Assembly (NCBI GenBank): GCA_028869995.1
Contig: JAGWQN010000093.1
Span: 1-64,000 of the forward strand
Origin: Rhodospirillales bacterium
Lineage (GTDB): Bacteria > Pseudomonadota > Alphaproteobacteria > Acetobacterales > Acetobacteraceae
Direction: 5' to 3'
Length of the DNA stretch: 64,000 nucleotides
Positions 8,179-31,270 of the stretch are shown piece by piece; position 1 is the first letter of the stretch, and each line of letters starts with the position of its first letter. A program made the position numbers and the translations under genes. Under the pieces are notes generated by a model. The model was not told the DNA's origin. It did no database searches and saw only the letters and a list, made by a program, of their open reading frames with translations.

Positions 8179-9180
8179 CTACATCGCCGGCTGCAGGGTA
8201 AGATCGTCGCGTATGCAGGCGCTCTGATGGTCAGGCGCGACGTGACGCAATGGCGGGATCTCGCCCGCGCAGGCGGGAAGCGCATAGCGGCAGCGCGTGC
8301 GGAAGACACAGCCAGACGGCGGATTGATGGGGCTCGGAATATCGCCGCTGAGGATGATGCGTGAGCGCCTTGCGTCCGGATCGGGATCCGGTGCGGCCGA
8401 AAACAGTGCTTCGGTATAAGGGTGGCGCGGGTTCGAAAACAGCTCGATCGTCGGAGCGCTCTCGACCATCCGGCCGAGATACATCACGGCGACCTTGTCG
8501 CAGAGATGTCCGACGACGGCGAGGTCGTGCGAGATGAACAGCATCGCCAGCGAGAAACGCGCCCGGAGATCGAGCAGAAGATTGACGATCTGCGCCTGGA
8601 TCGAGACGTCGAGCGCCGAGACGGGTTCGTCGGCGACGAGGAAATCCGGCCGCAGCAGAAGTGCCCGCGCGATACCGATGCGTTGCCTCTGGCCGCCCGA
8701 GAACTCGTGCGGGAAGCGCCCCGCATGGCCGGGCAGAAGGCCGACCATCTGCAGCATCTCCGCCACGCGCTCCGCTCGCTCCGCCTGACCCATCCGCGGC
8801 TCGTGGATGATGAGCGGTGCGGCGATGATGCGCCCGACCGTCATGCGCGGATTGAGCGAGGCGAACGGATCCTGGAACACGAGCTGAAGCTTGCGGCGAA
8901 TCGGGCGCATCTCGCGCCTCGATAGATGGGTGATGTCCCGACCACGGAACCGGATTGTCCCATCCGTTGGCTCCGTCAACCGCAGCAAGGTACGTCCAAC
9001 CGTCGTCTTGCCCGAGCCGGATTCGCCGACCAGCCCAAGAATCTCGCCACGACGAACCGAAAAGGAAACGCCGTCGACGGCCTTTACGTCAGCACCCGAT
9101 CGCGAGAACAAGCCTCCGCCAACTTGGAACCATTTACGCAGATTCAAAGCCTCGACGATCGTCTCGTCAGACGGGTTCAT
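8179..9180 (-). CDS. dppF: dipeptide/oligopeptide ABC transporter ATP-binding protein
   Basis: Walker [21 protein letters not shown], signature [18 protein letters not shown]-terminal oligopeptide_HPY-like [18 protein letters not shown]. Confidence 0.88.
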
Positions 9181-10214
9181 CGCCCAACCCCGTCCGCGAT
9201 CTCGCGCCAGCGGACGCAGCGCACGAAATGCCCCGCCCCCACCTCCTCGAGGGCGGGGCTTACCGCGTCGCATCGGCCTTCAGCGGCGTGGCTGCAACGC
9301 GGCGCAAAAGCACAGCCTGGCGGCAGGTTCGTCGGGTCGGGTACGCTGCCGGGGATCGCCTCCAGGACCACCCGCTCGCCCCCGATCTGCAGCCGCGGTA
9401 CCGAATGCATCAGCTTGACCGTGTAGGGCATGCGCGGCGCCTGGAACAGCGTGCGCATCGCCGCCTGTTCGACGATGCGCCCGGCATACATCACCATCAC
9501 CCGATCGGCGATCTCGGCGACAACACCAAGATTATGCGTAATGAAAATCACCGCCATACCGGTACGCTTCTGCAACCGTCGCAGCAGGTCGAGGATTTGC
9601 GCCTGTACCGTGACGTCAAGTGCGGTTGTCGGTTCATCGGCGATCAGCAGCGCCGGATCGCAGGAGAGTGCGATCGCGATCATCACCCGCTGGCGCATAC
9701 CGCCCGACAGATGGTGCGGGTAGGTAGCCAGCCGCGCTCGTGGTTCGGGAATGCCCACAAGTTCGAGCAAGTCGCCGGCCGCGTCCCACGCACTGGCGCG
9801 CGCCGTGCCCCGGTGCACCGCGATCGCCTCCGCGATCTGCTCGCCGATCGTCAGAACCGGGTTGAGCGAGGTCATCGGCTCCTGGAAGATCATGGCGATC
9901 CGATCGCCTCGCACCTTACGCATCGCCTCGCTGGGTAGCGCCAGCAGGTCGAGCGGCACGCCGTCGGTTCCGCGCAGCCATACGTGGCCACCGACCTGGC
10001 AGCCAGGCGGTGACGGCGTCAGGCGCATGATGGCAAGGCTCGTGACGCTCTTGCCCGACCCTGACTCACCCACAAGCGCCACCGTCTCCCCCGACCGCAC
10101 CGCAAAGCTAACGCCGTTGAGCGCCGAAACCACACCGGCGTCGCTGCGGAAGCGCACGCTCAGATCGTCCACCTGCAGCAAGGCACCGGGGTCCATTTGC
10201 CGTGGTTGCGTCAT
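9177..10214 (-). CDS. dppD: dipeptide/oligopeptide ABC transporter ATP-binding protein
   Basis: [69 protein letters not shown]. Confidence 0.88.
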
Positions 10215-11098
10215 GTGATGTCGAGCCGGGGGTCGAGAGCGTCACGCAGCCCATCGCCAACAAAGTTGAAGCCTGTGACCGCGAGAATAATGAAGAGACC
10301 CGGCAGCAGCGCGAGCCAGGGAGCGGTTGCGAGATACTCCTGCGCGTTGTTGAGCATGTTGCCCCAGCTCGGCGTCGGCGGCTGAATGCCGTAACCGAGA
10401 AAGCTGACATAGGCCTCGAGCAGGATCGCCCGGGCGACATTCAGCGTCGAGGCGACGACGATCGGCGCCACCGCGTTCGGCAGCAGCTCGTGAAACATGA
10501 TATGCGCATCGGAGGCGCCGAGCACCTTGGCAGCCAGGGCGAAGTCGCGTTCCCGCAGCGAACGGATCTGCGCCTCGACAACCCGCGCCACTTCCATCCA
10601 GGCGGTCGCCGCGATGACCAGGGTAATGGTGAAAAGATTGGGTTGCACAAAGGCCGCAAGTGCCAGCAGCAGAAAAATCGACGGGAAACAGAGCACCGCA
10701 TCGACGAAGCGCATGAGCATGCTGCCGATGGCGCCGCCGAAATAGCCCGCGATCGTCCCGACGAACGTGCCGATGACCGTGCTGATGGCCATCGCCGCGA
10801 AGCCAACGGTCAGAGAAACCCGGCCGGCGATCATCAAGCGCGCGAAGAGATCGCGCCCCAGGGCGTCCGCCCCAAGGATGTGCGCGCTCATGAAGGGCTC
10901 CGCAAAGCGGTGGCGTATATCGATGCGCAGATCGTTGTAGGGCCAAATGTAGGGCCCGACGGCACATAGCAGAACCAGGACGATAATCGCCCCAAGCCCG
11001 AACAGCGCCAGCCGGTGGCGCACGAAGCGTGCCAAAGCCCGACTGCGCGCACGCCGCGCCGGGCTTACACGGGGAGGAGTCTCAGTCGCAACTGCCAT
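10211..11098 (-). CDS. dppC: peptide ABC transporter permease (DppC-like)
   Basis: RHRFAEPFMSAHILGADALGRDLFARLMIAGRVSLTVGF, typical DppC/OppC. Confidence 0.88.
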   Translation of the reverse strand: MAVATETPPRVSPARRARSRALARFVRHRLALFGLGAIIVLVLLCAVGPYIWPYNDLRIDIRHRFAEPFMSAHILGADALGRDLFARLMIAGRVSLTVGFAAMAISTVIGTFVGTIAGYFGGAIGSMLMRFVDAVLCFPSIFLLLALAAFVQPNLFTITLVIAATAWMEVARVVEAQIRSLRERDFALAAKVLGASDAHIMFHELLPNAVAPIVVASTLNVARAILLEAYVSFLGYGIQPPTPSWGNMLNNAQEYLATAPWLALLPGLFIILAVTGFNFVGDGLRDALDPRLDIT

Positions 11099-11111
11099 GC
11101 CGGTCTACGCC

Positions 11112-12062
11112 TCAGTCCAGTCGGATACGCGGATCGGCGGCCGCATAAAGCAGATCCGCGGCGAGGTTGCCGAGCAACACGAGAACAGCCGAGAACATCA
11201 GGATTCCCATCACCACCGGATAGTCACGATACCCGATCGAATCGAGGAAAAGCCGCCCCATGCCGGGCCATGTGAAGACGGTTTCGGTAACGAGCGCCCC
11301 CGAGAGTAGTGTCGGCAGTTGCAGTCCGGCGATGGTAATCATAGGCAGCAGAGCGTTGCGGATCGTGTGCCTGAAGAGAATCGTCTGCTCCGGAACCCCT
11401 TTGGCACGAGCGGTACGGATGTAGTCCTGGTTTACGACCTCCAGCATCGAGGCGCGCAGGTACCGGCTCCAGATCGCAATGGTAACCAGTGCCAGAACGA
11501 TCGATGGGGAGATCAGGTGCACCGCGTAATCCAGGAAAGATCCATTACCGATCGTGTAGAGGTTACCTGCAGGAAGCCAGGCGAGCTTGACGGAAAAGAT
11601 GTAGATCACGACCAATCCGAACCAGAACGTCGGGATTGAAAGCGCGATCATCGCGCCTACGGTGGCCAGATAGTCGAACACTGAGTAACGCCGGATCGCT
11701 CCCAGAACCCCGACCCACGTGCCGAGGAGGATGGCAATCACGGTCGAGCTCACCATGAGTTCCAGCGTCGGCCAGAGATGCGCGGCTATGACGTAGAGCA
11801 CCGGCTGGCTATCGCGATATGATCGCCCCCAATTGCCCGCCAGCATGCGCCGGAACCATTCCCAGTATTGCACCGGGAGAGGACGGTCCAACCCCATCTG
11901 ATGCGCAATCAGCTTCAACTGGGCGGTCGTCATGCCGGGGATGAGTGTGAACTCCGCCAGTGGCCCCCCCGGCGCCAGATGAAGCACCGCAAAGCCAATG
12001 ACCGAGACCAGCCACAGGAGAACCAGGGATTGCGCCAGCCGGCGGAGCAGGAAGCGTGTCAT
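11112..12062 (-). CDS. dppB: peptide ABC transporter permease (DppB-like)
   Basis: MTRFLLRRLAQSLVLLWLVSVIGFAVLHLAPGGP...TVFTWPGMGRLFLDSIGYRDYPVVMGILM. Confidence 0.9.
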   Translation of the reverse strand: MTRFLLRRLAQSLVLLWLVSVIGFAVLHLAPGGPLAEFTLIPGMTTAQLKLIAHQMGLDRPLPVQYWEWFRRMLAGNWGRSYRDSQPVLYVIAAHLWPTLELMVSSTVIAILLGTWVGVLGAIRRYSVFDYLATVGAMIALSIPTFWFGLVVIYIFSVKLAWLPAGNLYTIGNGSFLDYAVHLISPSIVLALVTIAIWSRYLRASMLEVVNQDYIRTARAKGVPEQTILFRHTIRNALLPMITIAGLQLPTLLSGALVTETVFTWPGMGRLFLDSIGYRDYPVVMGILMFSAVLVLLGNLAADLLYAAADPRIRLD

Positions 12063-12093
12063 CGCTTCCTGCCCGCCATGCCGACGCCCGGGC

Positions 12094-13782
12094 TCAAGTA
12101 GCCCAGTACCATGTATTCACGTTCCATGTATTCGTGGAAACGTAGACACTCGGTTCATAACCCATAAGATTTTTCTTGGTTCCCTCGATCGTCGCATACT
12201 GAAAGATGGGAAGCAGGGGCAGATCGTGGCGGATAATCTCTGCGGCCTTCCAATAATCCTTCTGCCGGGTCGCGTGATCGAACGTCGACGCGCCCTCCTG
12301 CAGCAGCTTGTCAACCTCGGCATTGCTGTATTCCATCGTGTTCTGCCCCGCCCCGCCCTTCGCCGGAATCGCAGCGCTGAGGAAGAATTGCGACACATCC
12401 GGGTCTGGACCGGTCATGAAGTCCTCGCCAACCATGACCGTATCGTAGTGGGACATATTGAAATAATCGCCCCAGATTACGGCTGGCGGCATGTTTTTGA
12501 TCTTCATGTCGACGCCGATGTCCTGCCAATTTTGCTGCAGCAGCTGCTGGGCCTGCTCGCGCACATGGTTACCGGCGGTGGTCGAGTTCTGGAAGCTAAG
12601 ACGCACGCCGTTCTTCTCGCGGATACCTCCACTACCCGGCTTCCAGCCTGCCGCGTCGAGGATCGATTTCGCCTTCGCCGGGTCATAGACATGCGGCGCC
12701 ACATGCGGGTTGTAGGCCCAGGACTGCGTCGGGAGGTAGGACGACGTCAGCTTCGGGAGGCCGTAATAGATCTGCTCGACGATCGTCTTGTTATCCATGC
12801 CGTAATACAGCGCCTCCCGGACAGCCTGGTCCGCGAACTGTGGCTTCGAGAGATTCATCATGATGCTCTCGACGAACGGCGCGGGACCGACAACGACTGT
12901 CCGATACTTCAGCTTCTTCGCCTGCGCGTAATGATCCGCGGTGATTCCCTGAAGGCCGATATAATCAATCGCCCCGGTTTGGAATTGCGTGAACATCACT
13001 GTTAGATCAGGAATATACTTAAATACAATTTCCTGAAGATACGGGCCTGTACCGAAGTAGTGGGGATTGGCCTCCAGCGTGATGTGGTCACCAGGAACGC
13101 GCTGCTTCCACATGAATGCACCGGTACCGACGGGCGCCTGGTTGAAAGAGGATGTGTTAGGGTCCGCTGCCTTGCCGAGAATATGTTCGGGCACCATGAA
13201 CGTCCAGCACAGGATCGAGATCATGGGCGCATATGGCTTCGCCATCGTCCACGTGATCTCCGTCGGGCTTTCGACCTTGATGTTGCGCATCAGCTCATAG
13301 CCGCCCCGAGACCAGGCACGAAACTTCGGATTGTTGAGAAGGTCGAACGAGAATTTGACGTCCTTGGCCGAGAACGGCTGTCCGTCATGCCATTTCACGT
13401 CCGGTCGCAACTTCACGCGCCACGAAAGTCCATCCTTGGAAATCCCGCCGTTAGCAATCGTCGGGACCTCGGCCGCGAGTTGCGGCACCAGCTCTCCCTT
13501 TTCGTTGGCAAGCCACAACGGACTGAACAGGTTCCAGTGCACACCCTGGTCAACTTCAATGTGGGGCATCAGCGGGTTAAAGACCGTCGGCTCCTGCGAG
13601 AATCCGATTGTCATATGCCCGGTCGGATGTGCCGGCGGCTTCGAGGCCGCGCGCGCCGCCGCTGGCAGAAAAAGACCTGAGGCCCCGACTGCCGCCGATG
13701 CGCCGAGCAATCGGCGCCGCGAGATGCCACCATGAACCATCCTCGGGAAGCAACCAAAATCAGCACGCGCGTCGTCAGTCAT
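12094..13782 (-). CDS. peptide/solute ABC transporter substrate-binding protein (SBP family 5), Tat-like signal
   Basis: N-terminal SRRRLLGASAAVGASGLFLPAAARA; body SWRVKLRPDVKWHDGQPFSAKDVKFSFDLL typical of SBP_bac_5. Confidence 0.9.
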   Translation of the reverse strand: MTDDARADFGCFPRMVHGGISRRRLLGASAAVGASGLFLPAAARAASKPPAHPTGHMTIGFSQEPTVFNPLMPHIEVDQGVHWNLFSPLWLANEKGELVPQLAAEVPTIANGGISKDGLSWRVKLRPDVKWHDGQPFSAKDVKFSFDLLNNPKFRAWSRGGYELMRNIKVESPTEITWTMAKPYAPMISILCWTFMVPEHILGKAADPNTSSFNQAPVGTGAFMWKQRVPGDHITLEANPHYFGTGPYLQEIVFKYIPDLTVMFTQFQTGAIDYIGLQGITADHYAQAKKLKYRTVVVGPAPFVESIMMNLSKPQFADQAVREALYYGMDNKTIVEQIYYGLPKLTSSYLPTQSWAYNPHVAPHVYDPAKAKSILDAAGWKPGSGGIREKNGVRLSFQNSTTAGNHVREQAQQLLQQNWQDIGVDMKIKNMPPAVIWGDYFNMSHYDTVMVGEDFMTGPDPDVSQFFLSAAIPAKGGAGQNTMEYSNAEVDKLLQEGASTFDHATRQKDYWKAAEIIRHDLPLLPIFQYATIEGTKKNLMGYEPSVYVSTNTWNVNTWYWAT

Positions 13783-14610
13783 GTGTATCTCCTGAAGACT
13801 GCCGACCAGATCGGGTCGGGCTTATGGTTGACGTTGAAACCCACAGCTCGCTCTTGGCCGCCTCGGAACCCAGCGGCGACCCCGCAACCTAGCAACGATG
13901 GTGGAGATATCGGGCGCCGCATGACCGCCAGCGACATCAGCTTATCTACAGGCGACATACCGGCGCGCGCGATATCCGCACGGGAAAAGCACGGCTCGTG
14001 CGAACCCAGGAGACGGCGCGCGTCGGCGATACTCTCGCCGCCGGTCATGGCTGTCATGGGCATCACTCCCCCCATCGCTTGCTTGCCACAAACGAAGTTC
14101 TTCTTCTAGAAATTCTTATACCAAAGTCGGTCGCGATCAAGCCGGCGAAGGTTCACGACTTCGCAGGGGCGCAGAACAGCCAGGGCGTGCGAATCAGCTT
14201 TTGCCGGGTCGGGCTCAGTGACCGGCGCGTGGACCATCGTGGCTGAGTTCCACAGCGAGCAGCAAGACGAAGCCCGCCGCAAAAATCTCTACCAGCGCTG
14301 GCGGCCTGGATGAACCCGGCGAATGGGCGTGCCATCCGCGCGCGCCTCCGGAAATTTGCCAGAAACACCCGCATCGGCATTCGTCTGATCGTCGCTCTGA
14401 ATCACTCGATGCGTTGGATCCCGATCCGGGCAGGTCACTCTCGATATGTTGGCGTTCCTAAAAGATGACCTTGTGGCGCATCTGTCGGTGATCGAGTCTT
14501 GCGCGGAGCGGTTGCCCGGGACCTTGCTGTCGCGGCAGGATGCCCCTCGCATCGTCAGCGAATTTCTGCAATTCGTTGCGTCCGATCGAATGTACTCAGG
14601 AAGGCAGCCC

Positions 14611-15312
14611 ATGAACGGAAAAGTCGCTATCATCACGGCTGGCGGCAGCGGCATGGGCGCGGCCGCAGCAAGGCGGCTGGCGGCGGACGGATTCAACATC
14701 GCGATCCTGTCCTCGTCCGGCAAGGGAGAAGCGCTTGCGCAGGAACTCGGCGGCTATGGCGTCACGGGCTCCAACCAGTCGTCGGACGACCTGAAGCGCC
14801 TCGTCGACGGCACGATGGCGCGCTGGGGTCGCATCGATGCCCTCGTCAACAGCGCCGGGCATGGTCCGCGCGCACCAATCCTCGATATCACCGACGAGCA
14901 ATGGCTCGCTGGCATGGAGGTCTATTTCCTGAACGTGGTGCGCGCAACGCGACTGGTTGCCCCGATCATGCGCGCGCAGATGGGCGGCGCCATCGTCAAC
15001 ATCTCGACGGCTTGGGTCGGCGAACCGAGCGCGATGTTCCCGACTTCCGCCGTCTTTCGTTCAGGCCTCGCCGCCTATACCAAGATCTTCACCGACGCGT
15101 TCGCCGCCAGCAACGTAAGGATGAACAACGTATTGCCGGGCTGGATCGACAGCCTCCCCGCCACGGAGCAACGCCGGCAAACCGTCCCGCTTGGTCGCTA
15201 CGGCCGGGTCGAGGAAGTGGCCGCCGCCATTGCCTTTCTCGTCTCCGACGCGGCCGGCTACATCACCGGGCAAAGCCTCCGCATCGACGGCGGACTCACG
15301 CGCTCCGTCTGA
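14611..15312 (+). CDS. SDR-family oxidoreductase
   Basis: MNGKVAIITAGGSGMGAAAARRLAADGFNIAIL...LVNSAGH...FLVSDAAGYITGQSLRIDGGLTRSV. The catalytic Tyr region reads SGLAAYTKIF. Confidence 0.85.
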   Translation: MNGKVAIITAGGSGMGAAAARRLAADGFNIAILSSSGKGEALAQELGGYGVTGSNQSSDDLKRLVDGTMARWGRIDALVNSAGHGPRAPILDITDEQWLAGMEVYFLNVVRATRLVAPIMRAQMGGAIVNISTAWVGEPSAMFPTSAVFRSGLAAYTKIFTDAFAASNVRMNNVLPGWIDSLPATEQRRQTVPLGRYGRVEEVAAAIAFLVSDAAGYITGQSLRIDGGLTRSV

Positions 15313-16150
15313 CCGTGGCCGCGCCCGTGGCGGGCGGCTCCACGCGATCGTCCGGATGCCCGAGATTGACAAACCAGCCGCCGAGATATCGCACAGCGGG
15401 CGCATCGGGATCCGCTGCAGGCAACCTGGCTTCCACCGCAGCCCGGTCGGCCTCGGTACTGTCTTGCGGCTGAAACCCGATATGGCCTGCAAGACAATTG
15501 TCCACCATTTGATGGCGGTTGCGTGAGGTCCCGAAAATGATGGAATGCGCGACGCGTGGCGCTGTCAGGCAAGCTTCGACCAATCGAACGCAATCATCAA
15601 AGGTCAGCATGGACCAGAGCATACGACGGTCTGAGTATTGATCGAAGGAAGAAAAAATGCGACAGCAAGCCGTCTCGATTCCGAATTTATCCCAGTAAAG
15701 ACGGCTCAGATCCTCGACGAAGCATTTCGAAACGCCATAGAGGCTGTCCGGCCGATGCGATGCACTCGCATCGATATGGGCTTCGACCCCGTGGTACCCT
15801 ATTGCATGAACCGACGACGCGTAGACGACGCGCTTGACGCCATTTTGTCGTGCGCCTTCGTAGATGTTATAGCCGCCCCGGATATTGGCACTGAGGATCG
15901 TTTCCCAATCCGTCTCCAGCGCCGCGCCGCCGAAATGCACGATCGCATCGACGCCCTGCGTCATCCTCCGGACAGCCTCGGCATCAGCCAGATCGCAGAC
16001 CACCGCCTCTTCGTTTGCCCTCAGGTCGGCAATATCGGTTCGATCCGAAAGGCGCAGGCGCCGGGCAAGCGGGGCGAGGCCCCGGCGCAGCTGCGATCCG
16101 AGCCGCCCGGCAGCGCCTGTGATGAGAAGCGTGTCGAATTGGTGGCTCAT
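15296..16150 (-). CDS. NAD-dependent epimerase/dehydratase family protein, uronate-dehydrogenase-like
   Basis: LLITGAAGRLGSQLRRGLAP...VDAIVHFGGAALETDWETILSANIRGGYNIYEGARQNGVKRVVYASSVHAIGYHG. Confidence 0.8.
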   Translation of the reverse strand: MSHQFDTLLITGAAGRLGSQLRRGLAPLARRLRLSDRTDIADLRANEEAVVCDLADAEAVRRMTQGVDAIVHFGGAALETDWETILSANIRGGYNIYEGARQNGVKRVVYASSVHAIGYHGVEAHIDASASHRPDSLYGVSKCFVEDLSRLYWDKFGIETACCRIFSSFDQYSDRRMLWSMLTFDDCVRLVEACLTAPRVAHSIIFGTSRNRHQMVDNCLAGHIGFQPQDSTEADRAAVEARLPAADPDAPAVRYLGGWFVNLGHPDDRVEPPATGAATVRRSA

Positions 16151-17367
16151 GCCCTGCCTCCCCCGGTAGCGAGGGCTGCGACCGCCCGCCCGATCCGCGT
16201 CACGGCCTCCACCAGAATCGCATCAGCGGTAGCCGTGGAAATACGAAAAAATGGCGATAGCCCATAAGCGGTACCCGGCACCGCGCTCACGTGACCTTCC
16301 GCAAGAAGATAGTGCACCACATCGACGTCATCCTTGAGCACACTGCCTGACGGCGTCTGGCGACCGATAAGGTCGGCACAGCCGATATACGCATAAAAGG
16401 CACCTTCCGGCGGTGGCAGCGTCAGCCCTTTGATACCGGCAATGCCGGCAACAACCAGGTCTCGCCGACGCTCGAAAGCCGTACGGAACATTGGTACGCA
16501 ATCCTGCGGGCCGGTGAGTGCGGCGCGCGCGGCGGCTTGCATCGGGGCAGCGACGGAGGTGCAAGACTGGCTCTGCACGGTGTTCATAGCCTTGACCAGC
16601 GGGGCAGGACCAGCCGCGTAACCGATGCGCCAGCCGGTCATGGCAAAGGCTTTCGCAACGCCGTTCACAATGAGTGTACGCTCGCGCAGTTGCGGACAGG
16701 CCTTACCAAAGGACGTGAATTCCCGGCCATCGAAGATGATATGCTCATAAATTTCGTCGGAAAGAACGAGAACTCCGGGATGACGCTCGAGCACCGCTGC
16801 CAGCATCCGTAGCTGCGCCTGTGAATAGGCAGCGCCCGACGGGTTGTTGGGCATGTTGAGGAACAGCCACTTTGTCCTCGGCGTGATGGCCGCTTCCAGG
16901 GCATCGGGGGTCAGCCGGAAGCCCGTCGCCGCGGGACAGTCGGCGATGATTGGCACGCCCCCTAAAAGCTTCACCATCTCTGGATAAGAAACAAAATACG
17001 GCGCCGGCAGAATCACTTCGTCGCCGTGGTTGAGCGTTGCCATCAGCGCATTGAAAATAACTTGCTTCGCACCATTCGCGACCACGATGTCTGCGGGCCG
17101 ATAATCCAGATCATTCTCACGACGGAACTTCTCGACGATGGCCTCGCGCAGCGCCAGGGTTCCGGCGGCTGCAGTGTAGTGCGTTTCGCCGTCGAGCGCC
17201 GCCTTATACGTCGCTTCGATGATATGAACAGGCGTCGGAAAATCCGGCTCGCCAAGGCCGAGGTCGATCACGTCCACCCCCGTGGCACGCAAAGCTTGCG
17301 CGGCCATTGAAGCCGCCATCGACGCCGAGGGTTTGACGGCTGATAGCTTTGCAGAAATATAGTTCAT
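16147..17367 (-). CDS. pyridoxal-phosphate-dependent class I aminotransferase
   Basis: SASMAASMAAQALRATGVDVIDLGLGEPDFPTP...NMPNNPSGAAYS...VNGVAKAFAMTGWRIGYAAGP (PLP lysine motif). Confidence 0.92.
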   Translation of the reverse strand: MNYISAKLSAVKPSASMAASMAAQALRATGVDVIDLGLGEPDFPTPVHIIEATYKAALDGETHYTAAAGTLALREAIVEKFRRENDLDYRPADIVVANGAKQVIFNALMATLNHGDEVILPAPYFVSYPEMVKLLGGVPIIADCPAATGFRLTPDALEAAITPRTKWLFLNMPNNPSGAAYSQAQLRMLAAVLERHPGVLVLSDEIYEHIIFDGREFTSFGKACPQLRERTLIVNGVAKAFAMTGWRIGYAAGPAPLVKAMNTVQSQSCTSVAAPMQAAARAALTGPQDCVPMFRTAFERRRDLVVAGIAGIKGLTLPPPEGAFYAYIGCADLIGRQTPSGSVLKDDVDVVHYLLAEGHVSAVPGTAYGLSPFFRISTATADAILVEAVTRIGRAVAALATGGGRA

Positions 17368-18983
17368 ACTTCGCCCTCCACGATATATCCCCTTGCTCGG
17401 TCCTCCGCTCTCGCCGCCGCGGAGCGGTTAGCGCGATCGCCATAGCCCCCACCGCCGGGCAGCTCCAGAACCAGCCGCCGCCCCGCGGGTACGTGCTGCC
17501 AGCCCTTCGATCGCATTTTCGTTCCGTCATCGAGTCTTACGATCCCAGCGGCGCCCTCCTTACCGCCGGCGCGGCCCTTCGGCGCATGCTGGGAGCGGTC
17601 AAACATAGCGGAGAAGTCAAACTCGTGACCGTCGTCGGGTGCGATCTCGATAATCTGTCCGAGCCCGCCCCGGAATTCGCCATCACCGCCTGAATCGGGC
17701 CGAAGTTCCTTGCGCCAGATGACAATCGGGCCGGTTTGTTCTGTCGCCTCTGCCGGCATCGTATGAACACCGGAAGGAAATGCGGTCGCGGACAATCCGT
17801 CGAGTCCAGGACGCGCTCCCATCCCGCCGGAATTGAACATCAGCACCTCCGCGCGGCGCCCCTCCCGGCCGGCAGCTGGGCGGACGGATATGTGGATGTT
17901 CCACAGCGCTCCCGCCCCCTCAGCCAGGATCTTTCCTGGAAGAGCCTGCGCCAAGGCGCCGAAGACCAGATCCGGCACCAAGTGTCCCAAGATATGCCGC
18001 AGCGCTACGGGTGCCGGTCTCATCGCATTGAGCACATTGACGGGAGATACCACGTTGAAAAACGACAACGACGCCGCGTTGTTCGGGATATCCGGTGCCA
18101 CCACGCATTTCAGCGCATAAGACGCATAGGCCTTGCTGTAGATCCCGGGGCAGTTGATACCCCATCGGCTCATTGGATCGCTGCCGCTGAAGTCGACGAG
18201 CACATCCTCATCAAGAATGGCCACCTTCACCATGAGCTTTATCGGTTCGTCGTAACCGTCGGTCACCAACTCGTTTGACCAACTTCCCTTCGGTAGCGAC
18301 TTAATTCGGTCGCGCATCGCTTCCCGCGTCCGCGAGAAGATGAAGGTCCCCAGATCCGCGAGTGACGAAAGGCCGATTTCGTCCATCATCTCAACGAGGC
18401 GCCGGTGCCCGACCTCGTTGCACGACGCCAGCGAATAAAAATCGCCGATCACTTGTCTCGGCTCTCGGACATTCACCTGAAGGATCCTAGTCAAATCCCG
18501 GTTGACCTCGCCTCGCTCGGCGAATTTCATGATCGGGATCTGGATTCCTTCCTCGTAAACCGACCGGCCGTCCGCACCAAAGCCGCGCCCACCGACATCC
18601 ACCACGTGCGCCGTACATGCGAAAAATGCGACGAGCTTCCCATCCCGGAAGGAAGGAGAAACCATCGTGATATCATGCAAATGGCCCGTCCCCTTCCAAG
18701 GGTCGTTGGTGACGTAGGTATCCCCCTCGTACATAGCCTCGCGCGGAATCTCCCGGATAAAGTTGAGGACCGCCTCGGCCATCGTATTGACGTGCCCAGG
18801 CGTTCCGGTGACGGCTTGCGCCAGCATCAGCCCCTGCGGATCGAAGACACCCGCAGACAAGTCGCCCGATTCACGCACCGAGGTCGAAAATGCCGTGCGC
18901 AACAGGGTGAGCGCCTGCTCCTCGACCACCGAAATCAGCCGGTTCCACATGACCTGCATGCGGATTTCACCGATGTCCCTCAC
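17364..18983 (-). CDS. hyuB: hydantoinase B/oxoprolinase family protein
   Basis: RTAFSTSVRESGDLSAGVFDPQGLMLAQAVTGTPGHVNTM...TNDPWKGTGHLHDITMVSP...PAGRRLVLELPGGGGYGD. Confidence 0.92.
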   Translation of the reverse strand: MRDIGEIRMQVMWNRLISVVEEQALTLLRTAFSTSVRESGDLSAGVFDPQGLMLAQAVTGTPGHVNTMAEAVLNFIREIPREAMYEGDTYVTNDPWKGTGHLHDITMVSPSFRDGKLVAFFACTAHVVDVGGRGFGADGRSVYEEGIQIPIMKFAERGEVNRDLTRILQVNVREPRQVIGDFYSLASCNEVGHRRLVEMMDEIGLSSLADLGTFIFSRTREAMRDRIKSLPKGSWSNELVTDGYDEPIKLMVKVAILDEDVLVDFSGSDPMSRWGINCPGIYSKAYASYALKCVVAPDIPNNAASLSFFNVVSPVNVLNAMRPAPVALRHILGHLVPDLVFGALAQALPGKILAEGAGALWNIHISVRPAAGREGRRAEVLMFNSGGMGARPGLDGLSATAFPSGVHTMPAEATEQTGPIVIWRKELRPDSGGDGEFRGGLGQIIEIAPDDGHEFDFSAMFDRSQHAPKGRAGGKEGAAGIVRLDDGTKMRSKGWQHVPAGRRLVLELPGGGGYGDRANRSAAARAEDRARGYIVEGEV

Positions 18984-21097
18984 GTGTTCCGTACCTTACG
19001 AATGAGAAGAATCGAGCCGTCATTCTGCACCACGGCATCAAACAACGAACTCACAACGGTTGTTGTCTCGTCCTCGACGACGACCGCTGGTCCTACGACC
19101 AGATCGCCCTTCACAAGAAGGCCTCTCGGCACAATCGAATGCCGGCGCATCGCACCCACGGCTGGATCGAAGACGCATCGAAAAGACGAAGGCTCGACGG
19201 TTCGCCCCTTCGTTAGCAGTTCTCGACGCTCAACGCCCGGTCGCTCATCCATTGCCTTGACCGACCAGGTCACAACTTCGATCTCCAGGCCGTCGAGTGC
19301 GTCGATGCTGCGTCCAAAGAAGCGCTGGTAGTTATCCCGAAAGAGATCGGCCAGTTTGACCGGTGCATCCGCATCGAACGGCACATCCGGGAGCAAGACC
19401 GGTATTTCCCAACCCTGTCCGGCATAACGCATGAAGGCCGTAACTTCCCGCACGATGCTTCGGCTTGTGCCGGCGCGCACAAATCTCTCCGCCGATTCCT
19501 TGAGGTCAGCCAGCATCTGGTTCACCACCTCCACGTCGAACTCCGAAAGTCTGGTGAACCGCGACGCCAGCGCTTCATAACCGAATGGCGCTTTGAGAAA
19601 GCCGATGGCCGAGCCGACGCCTGCACCTCGCGGAACCAGGCATAATTCCACACCCAACTTTTCGCACAGCCGCGCGGCGTGAAGCGGGGCAGCTCCACCG
19701 AACGCAATCATGACGTTCTCAGAAATATTCTTACCACTTTCGACAGCGTGCACACGCGCGGCATTGGCCATGTTCTCGTCGACCACTTCGCAGATGCCAA
19801 ACGCCGTCGCAACCGCGTCGAGACCGATCTGATCGCCCACCTCCTTCAGGATCGCTCGCTTGGCCTCGCCCTCATTGAGCCGGATCTTGCCGCCCGCAAA
19901 ATTGTCCGCATCGAGCTTTCCCAGGACGAGATCCGCATCCGTAATCGCCGGCCAGGTCCCCCCACGATCGTAACAGGCAGGACCTGGCTCCGAGCCCGCG
20001 CTTTCGGGCCCGGTCTGGATACGACCCATTGTATCCAACCACGCAATCGAGCCGCCTCCTGCGCCGATCTCAATCATCTCGATAACCGGAATCGAGATAG
20101 GCATGCCCGACCCCCTGCTGAAGCGGTAAGTTCGGGCCACCTCAAACGTACGCGCGGTACGCGGAGCAAACTCTTCGATCAGGCAGATCTTCGCTGTGGT
20201 ACCTCCCATGTCATAAGAAACGACCTTCTCCAGACCGAAGCGACGCGCGATATCAGCCGCAAAAATCGCTCCGCCCGCAGGTCCTGACTCCACCAGCCGG
20301 ACAGGAAATTCGGCAGCCGTCTCGACCGCGATGAGTCCGCCACCCGAATGGATCATGAAGACCGGACAATTCACACCGATATCCTTGAGACGCATCCTCA
20401 AGCGCCCGAGATACGTCGCCATTCGGGGTCGGACATAAGCATTCGCGCACACCGTATTAAATCGCTCGAACTCGCGCATCTGAGGAGAGACTTCGGCGCT
20501 AATCGAGATGGGAACGCTCAGTTTACGGGAGAGAATTTCCTGCGCCCGGCGCTCGTGCCGTATGTTCACATAAGAGTGGATAAAGCCAATCGCCACCGAC
20601 TCGAATGCTTGCTCCGCGATGACCGCGGCCAGCGCCTCAACTCCCGCCTCATCCAGCGGCTCCAACTCGCGACCATTTGCCCCGATGCGACCCCTGACCG
20701 GGAATCGATGCTCACGGGGGATCAGCGGCTGCGGCAGCCGCAAATTCAGGTCGTATTGATTAAAGCGGTTTTCCGTCCGCATTTCGATAACATCACGAAA
20801 GCCAGACGTTGTGACGAGCGCTGTCTTAGCACCACGACGCTCGATCAGAGCGTTGGTCGCAAGTGTCGTACCATGGATAACAACACCGATATCGCTTCGA
20901 TCGACGCCGGCCTCCCGTATCACGATGTCGATCCCATCCAGGATCGCCTGCTCCGGAGCCGAATAGTTCGTCAAAACTTTGGCCGAAAAAATTTTTTCAT
21001 CGCCAAAATCACCCGATGGCCCGACAGCAAGAACGATATCCGTGAAAGTGCCACCAATATCCGCTCCAAGGCGGATGCGATCTTTCGCGGACGTCAT
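18980..21097 (-). CDS. hyuA: hydantoinase/oxoprolinase family protein (HyuA)
   Basis: RLGADIGGTFTDIVLAV...VIHGTTLATNALIERRGAKTALVTTSGFRDVIEMRTENR...IGAGGGSIAWLD. Confidence 0.93.
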   Translation of the reverse strand: MTSAKDRIRLGADIGGTFTDIVLAVGPSGDFGDEKIFSAKVLTNYSAPEQAILDGIDIVIREAGVDRSDIGVVIHGTTLATNALIERRGAKTALVTTSGFRDVIEMRTENRFNQYDLNLRLPQPLIPREHRFPVRGRIGANGRELEPLDEAGVEALAAVIAEQAFESVAIGFIHSYVNIRHERRAQEILSRKLSVPISISAEVSPQMREFERFNTVCANAYVRPRMATYLGRLRMRLKDIGVNCPVFMIHSGGGLIAVETAAEFPVRLVESGPAGGAIFAADIARRFGLEKVVSYDMGGTTAKICLIEEFAPRTARTFEVARTYRFSRGSGMPISIPVIEMIEIGAGGGSIAWLDTMGRIQTGPESAGSEPGPACYDRGGTWPAITDADLVLGKLDADNFAGGKIRLNEGEAKRAILKEVGDQIGLDAVATAFGICEVVDENMANAARVHAVESGKNISENVMIAFGGAAPLHAARLCEKLGVELCLVPRGAGVGSAIGFLKAPFGYEALASRFTRLSEFDVEVVNQMLADLKESAERFVRAGTSRSIVREVTAFMRYAGQGWEIPVLLPDVPFDADAPVKLADLFRDNYQRFFGRSIDALDGLEIEVVTWSVKAMDERPGVERRELLTKGRTVEPSSFRCVFDPAVGAMRRHSIVPRGLLVKGDLVVGPAVVVEDETTTVVSSLFDAVVQNDGSILLIRKVRNT

Positions 21098-21680: not shown

Positions 21681-22628
21681 TCAGGCGAGTGGCGTCGTCC
21701 TAGGCCACGCCGGAAGGTCCGGATCGTGCCGCCAGTCCTGATGGATGAGCCACTGATGAAGCGCGGCAACGACCTTTGAACGCAAATGCCCTCGCGGTAC
21801 CACGAGAAAAAATCCCGGAATTTCCTCTGATTTCATATTTCTAAGCACGTCTCGCCCCAGCGGGGCAACCAACGCTCCCGAACGCAGGTCCTCTTCCGCG
21901 TGCAGCAACGAAACCAGTCCGATGCCGATGCCTTGCAGCGCGGCGCGACGCATCGTCGCCGCATCGTCAAAGCCGATGCTGCGGTCGCTCTCGGTCATCT
22001 CGACACCAAGATGCCGCAGGATATCGGGCCACAATCGCTTCGACTTGACTGCATCCAGTAATGTAAATCGCGTCAGATCGGCTGGACCGCCAATCTCTTT
22101 GGCGATCTCCGGCGTGCAGCAGATAATTTTGGGATCAGAAACGAGAAGTGTCGTCTGGTAGCCTTGCCAACTCCCATATCCCCACTGGATCGCCATATCC
22201 ACATCGTCTCGGCTGAAGTCGGGTAGGTCCACTCTGGTAGTGAGCCGCAAATCCGCATCGGGCAACATCGCGCGGAACAATGAGAGGCGCGGCAGCAGGT
22301 AGTGAGCTGCGAAATAGGGACTGGCGTTAAGATTGATCAGGTCTCGCAACGTTGTGCGTCTGACAGCGCGGACGCCTGCGTAAAATTCGTCGAATCCCGC
22401 CTTCACGTAATGTGAGAGCATCATCGCCGGTTCCGTAAGTTCGACAGACCTTCCCTTTCTTTCGAACAGAGTTACCTGCAGCGTGTCCTCGAGCAGCTTA
22501 ATTTGTTGACCGACAGCCTGCGGCGTCACGAGCAATTCATCCGCCGCCTGGCGAAAACTGCGGTGCTGTACCACAGCATGAAAAACACGTAGCGCATTCA
22601 GTGGTGGCAGCCGCAACTTGGCGGACAT
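21681..22628 (-). CDS. LysR-family transcriptional regulator (GcvA-like)
   Basis: LRLPPLNALRVFHAVVQHRSFRQAADELLVTPQAVGQQIKLLEDTLQVTLFERKGRSVELT, classic LysR HTH. Confidence 0.92.
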   Translation of the reverse strand: MSAKLRLPPLNALRVFHAVVQHRSFRQAADELLVTPQAVGQQIKLLEDTLQVTLFERKGRSVELTEPAMMLSHYVKAGFDEFYAGVRAVRRTTLRDLINLNASPYFAAHYLLPRLSLFRAMLPDADLRLTTRVDLPDFSRDDVDMAIQWGYGSWQGYQTTLLVSDPKIICCTPEIAKEIGGPADLTRFTLLDAVKSKRLWPDILRHLGVEMTESDRSIGFDDAATMRRAALQGIGIGLVSLLHAEEDLRSGALVAPLGRDVLRNMKSEEIPGFFLVVPRGHLRSKVVAALHQWLIHQDWRHDPDLPAWPRTTPLA

Positions 22629-22674: not shown

Positions 22675-23430
22675 TCAGGCGTAGATGTAACCCCCTGAGA
22701 CGATGACCTGCTCACCGGTCATGTACGTGTTCCTCGGACCACCTGCCATAAGCACCCATTCGGCGACCTCGCGAGGTTCCGCGCCGCGCCCGAGCGGACT
22801 GGCTTTTGCCAATTCTGGGAGGAAGCCGAGCGCCTTCGCGCGCTCGGTGGCCATCCCGGCCGGTGCAACTGAGTTGACAAGGATCCCGTCTTTGGCGACC
22901 TCCTGGGCAAAAGAACGTGTCAGACTCACCACGGCAGCCTTTGTCGCTGCGTAATGGGCGTTCTGCGGATGGGCCTTAAAGGCATCGACGGAAGTCAGGT
23001 TGACAATGCGTCCCCGCACATGATTACGCGGTTCCTGCCTGCGCATATGCAGCACGGCCGCGACCATCATGTGATACGTGCCTTTGATGTTGACGCCATT
23101 CTCGGCGTCCCACTCGGCATCGGTTATTTCAAGTATCGGCCGCCGCGGATAAATGGCAGCACAGTTGATAAGGGTATCAATTCGTCCCAGCACATCAGCC
23201 ACCGCGCCGAAAGCGCCATGGCATTGTGCCCCCACCTGAATGTCGCAGGAGCGTGCTTCAGCCGGCACCCCTCGTGCGCGTGCATGCCCAAGAGCTTCTT
23301 CCGCCGCTTCGCGATTGATGTCGATGATGCCGATAGCCGCCGCACCCGCGTCCACTGCCGTGTCGGCGAGCAGGGCACCCAGCCCTGATCCTCCACCGAC
23401 GATAAGTACCGACAAACCGTTCATTGCCAC
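22675..23430 (-). CDS. SDR-family oxidoreductase
   Basis: [42 protein letters not shown]...[34 protein letters not shown]. Confidence 0.9.
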
Positions 23431-23434: not shown

Positions 23435-24148
23435 CTACTTTGTTCCGCTCGGTGTGACCGGTCGTGTCGGGACGATATCGAAACGTACCACGGTCGCTCT
23501 TTCGGGCAGGGCGAGGATAGCCTCGACTACCTTGGCAACATCTTCCGGCTGCAGCGCCACATCACCCGCATACATCGCGGCCCGGGCCTTCTCGTCGAGA
23601 ATCGTCTCATACAAACGTGTCTCGACACGCCCGGCGACGATCTCCGTCACGCGAACGCCATGTGGCGAAAGATCGGCTCGCAACGACGCTGCGAAGCCGG
23701 CGATTGCCGCCTTGGTGGCGCTATAGACGGCGATGTTGGCGAAGCCGCTGTGCCCCGCCACGGAGCCCGTGAAGATCACATGCCCCGATCGGCGTTTGCA
23801 CATCTGGGGCAGGACAAGACGCGTGAGGAGGATCGGCGCGTTAAGATTGATCTCCAATGCCGCATCGATATCCGCGATCTCCATCTCGGCAAAATTGCCG
23901 AGCGGCGGCATGATACCAGCATTGTTGATAAGGACATCGATGGTGAGGTCAGCGACTGCCGCGGCCACCGCATGGCGATCAGTGATATCAAGGCAGATTG
24001 GTGAAATACTGGGACCGTTCCGCCGAAGCTCTTCAAGAGCCGCCTCGTTACGGCCGACAGCGTAGACAGTGTAGCCAGCCTCGTTCAGGCCGACGGCTAT
24101 CGCCTGGCCAATGCCGCTCGTTGCTCCGGTGATAAGAGCCGTCGTCAC
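23435..24148 (-). CDS. SDR-family oxidoreductase
   Basis: [34 protein letters not shown]...[10 protein letters not shown]...[19 protein letters not shown]. Confidence 0.9.
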
Positions 24149-24149: not shown

Positions 24150-24989
24150 TCAGGTCTCCTGTCGTGTTGGAAGTGATTGCGGTGGGACGTCCGCGCTAGA
24201 CCGTCGCGGCGCCTTCCCCGGCGGCTTCAGCCCCGCGAAGAGAGCAGCCGCCGCCTGCTTTTGTTCCTCATCGGTCGTCGCAACTTCGACACCTTGGACG
24301 AGTGCGCGTACACGAGCGAGGCTGTTGGAGAGATGTCGGCGCATGGCCTGTCGAGCCGAGCGATCATTGCGCCGGTCGATTGCGTCGACGACGGCTCTAT
24401 GCTCACGGTGAATCTGCGCGTAGTAGCGATCCTTGAGTCCCGGCTCGACAACGTAACCGAGCCGGAGCCTCGGCACGATCCGCGGCTTCAGGTAACTTAG
24501 GAAGCCATGGATAAATTCATTGCGAGCGGCTTTGGCAATAGCGAGATGGAAATCGTAATCGTAATGGACATGGACAGAGCTTGGATCCTGCTGTTCGGCG
24601 TCGATCCTTTCCATCAGCGCCCGGATAGCAAGGACCTCACTCTTCGTTCGCCGTTCCGCACACAGGCCTGCGGCTTCGACCTCGACGCTCAGACGAAGTT
24701 CAAGAAGCGCGATCGTTTCGGGAAGCGTTCGCAGCGCCTCGTCGGGTATTGTAAAATTCCGCGCCTCTGGCATCTCGCTGACAAACATCCCGCGCCCCTG
24801 ATGCGGAATTACGAGACCGTCAGAGCGTAGACGCGCGACCGCCTCGCGCACGACCGTACGGCTCACGTCATACCGGGTACACAGCTCCGCCTCCGTCGGG
24901 AGCTGCGCTCCCGGTTTGAGGCGTCCCGAACGAATGGTTCGGGCCAGACTCTCGGCCACGACAGTCGACAAGGACGGTCGCCTGGTCAT
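24150..24989 (-). CDS. GntR-family (FadR/FCD) transcriptional regulator
   Basis: IRSGRLKPGAQLPTEAELCTRYDVSRTVVREAVARLRSDGLVIPHQGRGMFV plus FCD-like C-terminus. Confidence 0.92.
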   Translation of the reverse strand: MTRRPSLSTVVAESLARTIRSGRLKPGAQLPTEAELCTRYDVSRTVVREAVARLRSDGLVIPHQGRGMFVSEMPEARNFTIPDEALRTLPETIALLELRLSVEVEAAGLCAERRTKSEVLAIRALMERIDAEQQDPSSVHVHYDYDFHLAIAKAARNEFIHGFLSYLKPRIVPRLRLGYVVEPGLKDRYYAQIHREHRAVVDAIDRRNDRSARQAMRRHLSNSLARVRALVQGVEVATTDEEQKQAAAALFAGLKPPGKAPRRSSADVPPQSLPTRQET

Positions 24990-25042: not shown

Positions 25043-25849
25043 TCAGATGGCGACGATGGGGCGGATCGGGTTTCCCTGTAGGTAGTGGGCGTAGGGCGCC
25101 TGCACCAGCCAGCCCGCATCGACCGGCAGGGTCACCCCGGTGACGGCACTCGCGCGATCCGAGCAGAGGAACATCGCCGCCTCGGCGACGTCGCGCGGGT
25201 CGACGAACCGGCGCAGCGCCGTGCTCGCCTTGATGGCCTCGGGGTTGCGCTCGCCCTTGGCGATCTTCTCCTTGAGCCCATCCGACAACGTATAGCCCGG
25301 CGCCACAGCGTTGACGCGCACGCCCCGCGGACCGAGTTCCGCTGCCAGGATCTGGGTCAGGGCCAGCACCGCATGCTTTCCCGGCGTATAGGCTGGCAAC
25401 GACAAGGGTGCGAAAGAAGCGAGCGATCCGACATTGAGGATCGCCCCTCGCCCCGCCGCGGCCATCATCCGGCCGAAAACCTGGCACCCGAGCAGGGTGC
25501 CACGATAGTTGACGCGCCAGATCGCCTCGTCTTCGTCGAGTGCCTGATCGAGGACCCGTTTGCCGCTCTGCAGGATCCCGGCGCAGTTAATGAGCACAGA
25601 CGGTACGCCAAACTCCCCGGCTACCGCTACGCCGAGAGCCTCGACCGACCTCGCTTCGCCAACATCGGTCTCAACATACCGCGCCGCCGGTGCGCCGGCC
25701 GCTTCACAGGCACGCGCAACCTCCAGCCCCGATGCCTTGCCGCGCCCCGCGACCACGACGTGCGCTCCGTCCTCGGCGAACCGCATCGCAATTGCCTTGC
25801 CGATACCGCGCGTCCCGCCGATTACGACGACGGTACGCGCCTCATCCAT
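25043..25849 (-). CDS. SDR-family oxidoreductase
   Basis: ARTVVVIGGTRGIGKAIAMRFAEDGAHVVVAGRG...LINCAGIL...YTPGKHAVLALTQILAAELGPRGVRVNAVAPG. Confidence 0.9.
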   Translation of the reverse strand: MDEARTVVVIGGTRGIGKAIAMRFAEDGAHVVVAGRGKASGLEVARACEAAGAPAARYVETDVGEARSVEALGVAVAGEFGVPSVLINCAGILQSGKRVLDQALDEDEAIWRVNYRGTLLGCQVFGRMMAAAGRGAILNVGSLASFAPLSLPAYTPGKHAVLALTQILAAELGPRGVRVNAVAPGYTLSDGLKEKIAKGERNPEAIKASTALRRFVDPRDVAEAAMFLCSDRASAVTGVTLPVDAGWLVQAPYAHYLQGNPIRPIVAI

Positions 25850-26654
25850 GGCCGCGATCCCTGCGCTCGATATCGAAGAACTCCGACATTCCGCGCACCT
25901 GGAAATCCATCATCGGCTGTCCCGGCTGTATGCGGCAGCCTCTGTTTTTGGCCTCGAGCAGCAGTGCCGTCTCGACCGGGTCCATGATGATGTCAACGAC
26001 CGTCATGGCGGGTGTCAGCTTCGTCACGTCCATCGGCAGTGGATCGTTCTCGTGCAGGCCAGACGGCGTCGCGTTGATCGCCATGTCCATCCCCTCGGGA
26101 TCAGCATCGCCGACCTCGATGCGGCAGGCGGGAAAGGCCTCCGCCACCAAAGCAGCAAGCCTTGCCGCGCGCGTGGGATCAATATCATGGAGGCGAATTT
26201 CCGCCGCCCCCTCCTCCGCGAGGCAGTAAGCTAGCGAAGCGCCCGCACCTCCCGCTCCAACCTGCAAGATCTTGCGTCCCGCAATAGGATGGTTGCCGGC
26301 CTTGAGCCCTTCGATGAAGCCAACACCGTCAAAGTTGTCAGCATACCAACTTCCGTCCTCCTGCCGACGCACGGAGTTGGCACTTTGTACACGGGATGCG
26401 CGCGGATGCGCTGCCGAGCATTTGTGAAAGACGGCGACTTTATATGGAACCGAGACAATAACACCGCGCACATTTTGCGCGGCCGTAACGCCAGCCCAGA
26501 ATGTATCGAAATCCTTCGGCTGGCAGGTGATGGGGACCATCAAACTGTCCAGCCCCTTCGCCTCGAAAATATCATTGAACATGCCAGGACTTTTAGTGTG
26601 CCCAATTGGATGGGCCAGCATCAGGAAGACATCCGCCTTGCCGCTTCCACGCAT
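25842..26654 (-). CDS. shikimate/quinate dehydrogenase-like protein (AroE family)
   Basis: MRGSGKADVFLMLAHPIGHTKSPGMFNDIFEAKGLDSLMVP...NFDGVGFIEGLKAG...ILQVGAGGAGASLAYCLAEEGAAEIRLHDIDPTRA; GAAAGGAAAGAGACG precedes the start. Confidence 0.85.
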   Translation of the reverse strand: MRGSGKADVFLMLAHPIGHTKSPGMFNDIFEAKGLDSLMVPITCQPKDFDTFWAGVTAAQNVRGVIVSVPYKVAVFHKCSAAHPRASRVQSANSVRRQEDGSWYADNFDGVGFIEGLKAGNHPIAGRKILQVGAGGAGASLAYCLAEEGAAEIRLHDIDPTRAARLAALVAEAFPACRIEVGDADPEGMDMAINATPSGLHENDPLPMDVTKLTPAMTVVDIIMDPVETALLLEAKNRGCRIQPGQPMMDFQVRGMSEFFDIERRDRGHG

Positions 26655-29638: not shown

Positions 29639-29661
29639 CGTCTGGTCGCTTTCGTCTCTCG

Positions 29662-29689: not shown

Positions 29690-29743
29690 ACTCTGCGCCA
29701 GGCTCGTCCGCCATCCAGCCAACGACAAGCGGGGCGAAGGAAA

Positions 29744-31266: not shown

Positions 31267-31270
31267 TCCC

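Follow-up and report, generated by a model that had tools for sequence, protein, structure and literature searches.

What reaction sequence is encoded by a set of genes in which a HyuA/HyuB pair overlaps end to end with an aminotransferase and a dehydrogenase? The question is raised by positions 1 to 64,000 of contig JAGWQN010000093.1 from a Rhodospirillales bacterium (assembly GCA_028869995.1), a 64,000 nt stretch of DNA referred to here as the window. Four minus-strand genes form the core of the locus: hyuA, hyuB, a gene for a class I pyridoxal phosphate (PLP) aminotransferase (AT), and a gene that we call ext, for a uronate-dehydrogenase-like short-chain dehydrogenase/reductase (SDR). We consider it very likely that these genes belong to a conserved, catabolic module whose HyuAB is of an uncharacterized kind. 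The best explanation that we can offer, although a tentative one, is that the module is largely co-transcribed and degrades a nitrogen-containing, carboxylate-bearing compound via a lactam.

An earlier note on this DNA had described the four genes as overlapping by exactly 4 bp at every junction, and had interpreted them as a possible undescribed lactam or hydantoin catabolic module under obligate co-expression. The observation was confirmed, with the tetramers GTGA at 18980-18983, ATGA at 17364-17367 and ATGA at 16147-16150, whilst the interpretation was supported in part. The encoded proteins belong to the Pfam families Hydant_A_N and Hydantoinase_A (HyuA), Hydantoinase_B (HyuB), Aminotran_1_2 (AT) and Epimerase (ext, an extended SDR). 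Pfam scans of the larger open reading frames (ORFs) of the window, with a few ORFs unscanned, agreed with the earlier statements that carbamoylase, racemase and dihydropyrimidinase genes are absent from the window and that classical hydantoin metabolism is not in evidence there.

Conservation of the gene module

We retrieved 80 named alphaproteobacterial loci encoding a related HyuA (71-77% identity), and used the 67 with full flanks to count the module genes. The carriers were mostly Mesorhizobium, with others in Bosea, Labrys, Aureimonas, Shinella, Paracoccus, Ruegeria and further genera. HyuB was encoded at all 67 loci, ext at 64 and AT at 55, and HyuB-AT-ext occurred in that order at 55, so that the four-gene order is well represented elsewhere. 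Together with the placement of HyuAB described below, this supports the proposal of a conserved ATP-dependent ring-opening module that looks undescribed. Additionally, a thiamine pyrophosphate (TPP) enzyme was encoded at 60 of the 67 loci, and its gene immediately precedes hyuA in most relatives.

The coupling of the genes proved less general than their order. An ATGA or GTGA tetramer held the stop codon of the leading gene at 60/67 hyuA/hyuB junctions and 53/67 hyuB/AT junctions, but at only 14/55 AT/ext junctions. Moreover, AT was absent from 12 of the 67 loci, nine of which retained ext. The claim of full coupling applies to the window copy in particular, and the term 'obligate' overstated it.

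In another species of this genus, a partial hyuA is followed by hyuB, AT and ext, and genes for the convergent SDR and a peptide-type ATP-binding cassette (ABC) transporter are also present (82-97% protein identity; 82-90% for the module proteins). Between the two species, dN/dS was 0.063 for hyuB and for ext, 0.060 for AT and 0.093 for the partial hyuA, indicating strong purifying selection on the window copy. The closest solved relatives of AT are aspartate aminotransferases B and A (6f35, 6f77), and its catalytic residues (PLP Lys239, Asp204, Tyr207 and the carboxylate-binding Arg375) are kept in 72/72 aligned orthologues.

HyuAB is set apart from the characterized enzymes compared

The ATP motifs of HyuA are intact (P1 DIGGTFTD, P2 DMGGT, adenosine GSEPGP), and the key residues tested were invariant in 87 relatives. 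The HyuB metal ligands D41, H101 and/or H103, D104 and H126, equivalent to D41/H99/D102/H124 of CapB, were invariant in 88 aligned relatives. The activity of the caprolactamase CapAB requires these ATP-motif residues and metal ligands (PMC8453981). We consider that HyuAB probably opens an amide or lactam ring.

The closest solved relatives of HyuA are N-methylhydantoinase (332 bits) and caprolactamase (318 bits), and the same holds for HyuB. N-methylhydantoinase (PDB 7hk5, 9h03), the top-scoring solved relative of both subunits, shares the ATP-dependent opening of a cyclic amide, but is one fused chain of 1288 aa with Asp at the position of HyuA Lys303, and falls outside the window clade; no carbamoylase was found in the window. 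CapAB of Pseudomonas jessenii (PDB 6yra) shares the HyuA/HyuB architecture, the ATP motifs, the metal site and the logic of an associated aminotransferase. It differs in its gene neighbours and in carrying Asp302 where the window protein has Lys303. The NCBIfam CapA and CapB equivalog models have a cut-off of 1000 bits, against 448.3 and 161.2 bits for the window proteins, and the window HyuB lacks any Cys-Cys pair, unlike CapB with its vicinal disulfide Cys410-Cys411 (PMC8453981). On these scores and the missing pair, identity as a caprolactamase was rejected.

Acetone and acetophenone carboxylases also combine an ASKHA kinase subunit with a metal subunit. They differ from the window proteins, which have shorter subunits (HyuB is 539 aa) and no gene for a gamma subunit, hyuA being followed by hyuB, AT and ext. 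Judged by gene set and subunit length, as in PMC5214803, the window HyuAB falls in the hydrolase (Hyd) rather than the carboxylase branch, and none of the NCBIfam carboxylase cut-offs was reached (234.6 bits against 1500, 141 against 1250 and 59.8 against 1500). The indoleacetate gamma-lactamase IaaCE of Aromatoleum, compared by description only, is likewise a HyuAB-type enzyme that uses ATP to open a lactam formed within its pathway (PMC5214803); it differs in that no CoA-ligase or aromatic-pathway genes were recognized in the window.

In a quick HyuA tree with long reference branches, from which IaaCE, OplBA and true 5-oxoprolinases were left out, the window protein fell in a 100%-supported clade of 23 rows with Mesorhizobium, Aureimonas, Rhodobacterales and others. 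The four characterized enzymes included (7hk5, CapA, Apc and Acx) were placed outside a larger, 99%-supported clade, and HyuAB is apart from them in this tree. Position 303 of HyuA was Lys in 123/123 checked homologues of at least 45% identity, whereas the equivalent of CapA Asp302 was Asp in all four characterized subunits whose sequences were compared. This position corresponds to Lys281 of ApcA' (PMC8453981), a protein tentatively called a bicarbonate kinase (PMC5214803). The match between the two lysines hints at a possible role of bicarbonate, or of a charged substrate, in activation.

The window genome encodes seven further HyuA homologues of 34-52% identity, eight in total, one of them at G000:C42 (L137). 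The homologue of 52% identity belongs to a sister clade that is common in the family of the window bacterium and is also of the Lys303 type, without AT or ext. Gene contexts of this sister clade (about 50% identity), which were checked for functional hints, contained no AT or ext; one example lies beside an M24 peptidase gene.

A residue switch in ext tracks the HyuAB context

The ext protein is a member of the uronate dehydrogenase family (264 bits to 6mfh and 255 bits to 3ay3), whose characterized members convert uronic acids to lactones, acting on cyclic hemiacetals (PMC4476818). In the window protein, the Ser/His pair, Tyr138, Lys142 and the carboxylate-site Arg176 are kept, whilst two substrate-site residues differ, the beta5 Asn being replaced by Val114 and the beta6 Gly by Phe166. 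The Val/Phe pair was present in 81/81 close orthologues. Among HyuAB-linked ext proteins in general, nearly all had Val or Ile in place of Asn, and usually Phe in place of Gly.

To place this switch in its genomic context, we sampled 60 ext homologues from the family to which a Leisingera-type genome belongs (Roseobacter family) and three reference loci, comprising 35 with Asn/Gly and 28 with other residues. HyuAB genes lay within about 4 kb at 18/28 non-Asn/Gly loci but 1/35 Asn/Gly loci (Fisher 8e-8), and HyuAB, DAO-family flavoprotein or TPP-enzyme genes lay nearby at 26/28 and 1/35, respectively (Fisher 3e-14). The reverse was seen for SMP-30 lactonase or sugar-acid genes, found at 0/28 and 20/35 (Fisher 3e-7; all three tests ignore kinship). 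The residue switch tracks the HyuAB/DAO/TPP context, although not absolutely: true uronate dehydrogenases keep Asn/Gly and often lie beside SMP-30 lactonase or sugar-acid genes, and HyuAB-linked ext proteins do neither, except for one (L182) that keeps Asn/Gly. At three loci without HyuAB nearby (L215, L216 and L217), a TPP-enzyme gene directly precedes ext, with a 4-bp overlap in L216 and L217, and the two switch positions are Ile/Cys or Ile/Ala.

A characterized protein with a similar switch is UdhOg of Oceanicola granulosus, which departs from four efficient uronate dehydrogenases at these two positions, with Ile and Phe (PMC4476818). Its kcat/Km is 0.03-0.11 s-1 mM-1 on three uronates, thousands-fold poorer than the other four enzymes, which reach about 200-830 s-1 mM-1 on glucuronate and about 90-800 on galacturonate (PMC4476818). 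The same study suggested that the natural substrates of UdhOg might be others, still to be determined. UdhOg and ext have in common the fold, the catalytic Tyr/Lys/Ser/His/Arg, a nonpolar residue for Asn and Phe for Gly, and from the two switch residues we infer that UdhOg may belong to the HyuAB-type ext group.

A proposed oxidize-to-lactam pathway and its alternatives

These observations lead us to propose, with some reservation, that ext may act ahead of HyuAB and make the lactam, and we infer the following order of steps. An amino acid would be converted to a 2-oxo acid by AT or a DAO flavoprotein, and in the relatives the TPP enzyme would decarboxylate the 2-oxo acid to an aldehyde. Aldehyde and internal nitrogen would close into a cyclic hemiaminal, and ext, using NAD, would oxidize the hemiaminal carbon to a carbonyl, yielding a lactam where the true uronate dehydrogenases yield a lactone. 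HyuA would then use ATP to phosphorylate the lactam, or else bicarbonate, and the metal site of HyuB would open the ring, in place of a lactonase. The freed amino acid would be transaminated and then fed toward central metabolites by reduction or oxidation, carried out by the SDRs and, in the relatives, also by D-2-hydroxyacid and aldehyde dehydrogenases. The end products are possibly C5 dicarboxylates, as hinted by the D-2-hydroxyglutarate dehydrogenase and 2-oxoglutarate-semialdehyde-dehydrogenase-like genes of relatives, one of which encodes a YdiJ (D-2-hydroxyglutarate dehydrogenase) that exceeds its NCBIfam cut-off (L094).

The support for this proposal is sequence-based, and consists of the intact catalytic motifs in four proteins, purifying selection, gene order, the position of HyuA outside the available characterized enzymes and the residue switch in ext. 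Lactams, unlike lactones, need ATP for opening (caprolactam hydrolysis is endergonic by 23 kJ/mol; PMC8453981), and HyuAB at the place of a lactonase is as expected. The pairing of TPP enzyme and ext in L215-L217 suggests that the decarboxylase makes an aldehyde that cyclizes and is then oxidized by ext, and the usual place of the TPP gene in the relatives, just ahead of hyuA, is consistent with an aldehyde being handed to ext. Caprolactam, 5-oxoproline, hydroxyproline, diaminopimelate/6-oxopipecolate, opine lactams, iminosugars and mycosporine-type compounds were weighed as substrates; any one specific substrate is considered highly improbable, and we claim none.

The earlier note had favoured a different order, with ring opening first, then transamination and finally oxidation. 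In such a scheme, HyuAB would act on a lactam taken up from outside, AT would remove the amino group of the product to leave a semialdehyde or oxo acid, and ext would oxidize the latter. This caprolactam-like scheme has a clear precedent, as caprolactamase acts with an aminotransferase and a dehydrogenase (PMC6061476, PMC8453981), and amino-acid transporter genes adjoin many copies of the module. We nevertheless prefer oxidation first, because ext is a homologue of enzymes that take a cyclic hemiacetal to a lactone and HyuAB stands where a lactonase often sits. With its carboxylate-site Arg, ext is no aldehyde dehydrogenase, and some relatives encode separate, dedicated aldehyde dehydrogenases; TPP-ext pairs also occur without HyuAB, and ext persists at nine of the 12 loci that lack AT. 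Imported-lactam breakdown is accordingly judged rather unlikely. The family membership of ext could also be taken at face value, with ext as a true dehydrogenase of some uronate, for instance an amino-sugar acid, and HyuAB serving an unrelated side intermediate. The Asn/Gly ext that occurs with HyuAB in L182 would fit such a sugar-acid pathway, as would the HpcH-type aldolase and 2-hydroxy-3-oxopropionate reductase added to the module of Paracoccus yeei. We find this improbable given the lack of lactonase and sugar-acid genes beside the 28 non-Asn/Gly ext genes and the very poor uronate kinetics linked with the UdhOg residue pattern.

Two further explanations concern HyuAB itself. The enzyme of the window clade might be carboxylase-like or form carboxyphosphate, and be no lactamase, as the uniform Lys303 and its counterpart in ApcA' would allow; but a single residue is weak evidence, the short subunits and missing gamma subunit fit the Hyd branch and neither Acx nor Apc, and the carboxylase model scores are far under their cut-offs, which makes this option decidedly improbable. 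We give still less credence to ordinary use of 5-oxoproline, in which HyuAB would be a 5-oxoprolinase, AT would convert glutamate to 2-oxoglutarate and ext would be incidental. The aspartate/glutamate type of AT and the C5-related dehydrogenase genes of relatives agree with it, yet the window has separate subunits of 705 aa (HyuA) and 539 aa (HyuB) whilst an open frame of 1208 aa, such as a fused OPLAH-type enzyme would have, lies elsewhere in the genome, and ext with its strict association, the TPP enzyme, DAO and the SDRs would be left unexplained.

Several points weigh against the oxidize-to-lactam order that we prefer. It is conceivable that ext oxidizes an ordinary hemiacetal and that HyuAB acts on another intermediate, and Lys303 replaces the Asp of characterized lactamases, such that the activation chemistry may differ. 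The TPP gene is missing from the window and from the nearest architecture, that of Mesorhizobium composti (L077), and the best TPP homologue in the window genome, which is 77% complete, is 45% identical. The context counts of 18/28 and 26/28 ignore the shared ancestry of the loci. The HyuA-HyuB-AT-ext-DAO operon L182, from a Roseobacter-family genome (G511), is the sole HyuAB-linked exception found to the residue switch, and the exact Ile/Phe pair of UdhOg occurred in no sampled ext protein.

More broadly, we speculate that the 'uronate dehydrogenase' subfamily with a nonpolar residue for Asn, and often Phe for Gly, comprises lactam-forming hemiaminal dehydrogenases partnered with a Lys303-class HyuAB that replaces the lactonase, as a widespread alphaproteobacterial route of oxidation to a lactam and ATP-dependent opening. 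We regard this generalization as less likely than not. If it were true, a sizeable set of database 'uronate dehydrogenases' would be misnamed, UdhOg would gain its missing substrate class in cyclic hemiaminals, and it would become testable whether rhizobia, roseobacters and soil bacteria scavenge nitrogen by a new route. The published question of the real substrate of UdhOg becomes directly assayable, by offering cyclic hemiaminals to ext and the lactams so formed to HyuAB. Proteins of the HyuAB type abound, and almost all of them lack an assignment; eight HyuA homologues are encoded in the window bacterium alone. The module offers diagnostic residues, two in its dehydrogenase and one in HyuA. 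Searches of the open literature, with most subscription papers outside their reach, found no paper describing the module and none linking HyuAB to uronate dehydrogenase or to iminosugars or lactams. Nor was anything relevant found on HyuAB in connection with TPP enzymes, aminotransferases and rhizobial catabolism, on HyuAB with TnSeq data or homarine, or on homarine operons of Roseobacter.

The module extends beyond four genes

The earlier description of a four-gene unit holds for the order of the core, but the true unit appears larger, also including genes for LysR, SDR7, SDR8, GntR, SDR10, an AroE-like enzyme and DAO (Table 1).

Table 1. Features of the HyuAB module and its surroundings in the window
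Feature	Coordinates	Strand	Remarks
hyuA, HyuA-type ATP-binding (ASKHA) subunit	18980..21097	-	705 aa, ATG start
hyuB, HyuB-type metal-site subunit	17364..18983	-	539 aa, GTG start
AT, class I PLP aminotransferase	16147..17367	-	406 aa, ATG start
ext, uronate-dehydrogenase-like SDR	15296..16150	-	284 aa, ATG start
LysR regulator (GcvA-like)	21681..22628	-	Orthologue 71-79% in Mesorhizobium/Bosea-type relatives, about 55-61% in others; 62/67 loci
SDR7 (SDR)	22675..23430	-	Conserved member; 54/67 loci at at least 65% identity
SDR8 (SDR)	23435..24148	-	Conserved member; 63/67 loci at at least 40% identity
FadR/GntR regulator	24150..24989	-	Second half of module; 57% to P. yeei
SDR10 (SDR)	25043..25849	-	73% to P. 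yeei module gene
Shikimate-dehydrogenase (AroE)-like enzyme	25842..26654	-	76% to P. yeei module gene; mechanical ORF to 26810, homology from near 26654
DAO-family flavoprotein	26977..28194	+	77% to P. yeei module gene; about 52% to DAO after ext in other relatives
Liv (branched-chain-amino-acid-type) ABC transporter	28457..33585	+	Substrate-binding protein 28457-29638; ATPases 29744-30532, 30397-31266 (ORF extent); permeases 31226-32281, 32278-33585
SDR convergent with ext	14446..15312	+	17-bp tail overlap; syntenic in second species of genus
Peptide-type (Dpp/Opp) ABC transporter	8179..13782	-	Syntenic in same genus only

The fullest version of the module was found on a plasmid of P. yeei, where genes for DAO, an HpcH-type aldolase, 2-hydroxy-3-oxopropionate reductase, an AroE-like enzyme, an SDR, RidA, GntR, an aldehyde dehydrogenase and a GlcD-like protein are followed by those for the TPP enzyme, HyuA, HyuB, AT, ext, DAO, LysR, two SDRs and an ABC transporter. 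The window block 21681-28194 is homologous to parts of this version. Genes for the TPP enzyme, D-2-hydroxyacid dehydrogenase/GlcD-like protein, aldehyde dehydrogenase, RidA and an amino-acid ABC transporter were sought in the window, and none was found. Less frequent neighbours among the 67 loci were a GlcD/D-2-hydroxyglutarate-dehydrogenase-like flavoprotein (41), an amino-acid ABC transporter (~38) and a DAO flavoprotein (23). In four loci without AT (L091, L107, L110 and L111), a DAO gene follows ext, which suggests that AT and DAO may be alternative nitrogen-removing steps.

The association of the Liv transporter with the module is uncertain; its substrate-binding protein and ATPase are 54 and 67% identical, respectively, to counterparts beside the module of Shinella. 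In Shinella sp. PSBB067 (L118 5408-22905), genes for a Liv ABC transporter, an SDR, kynureninase, an SDR, the TPP enzyme, HyuAB, AT, ext, DAO and LysR lie on one strand, and the kynureninase-type beta-ketone hydrolase may be a member of the pathway. The peptide-type transporter is a possible uptake system. The convergent SDR gene was not seen beside the module outside the genus, and its true start is probably downstream of the mechanical ATG, with homology from near residue 53.

A compact variant, SDR8-SDR7-LysR-HyuA-HyuB-ext without AT or TPP enzyme, occurs in Mesorhizobium (L046, L052, L054, L063 and L072). The two of these loci that were examined, L046 and L052, have a dihydrodipicolinate synthase (DHDPS)-family gene upstream, and L052 also has genes for a proline-racemase/hydroxyproline-type enzyme, an Fe-alcohol dehydrogenase and sugar-type ABC proteins nearby.

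Origin of the window copy

Amongst 195 relatives searched at E <=1e-70, ext was found only in three distant genomes besides those of the window bacterium and its congener, and in no other sampled genus of the window's own family. GC content is mostly 58-63% across ~10-33 kb of the window, compared with 65-71% over most of the remainder. Taken with the position of the window HyuA amongst Mesorhizobium, Aureimonas and Rhodobacterales proteins, horizontal acquisition of the module is the likeliest reading.

Upstream of this island, the region 1127-5624 encodes a sarcosine-oxidase-alpha-like protein and a second DAO flavoprotein, which suggests further catabolism of N-methyl amino acids. A second dip in GC content, to about 58-60%, lies near 43-47 kb, and genes for respiratory nitrate reductase alpha and beta subunits and a major facilitator superfamily (MFS) transporter (43289-49876) are located within this second low-GC stretch.

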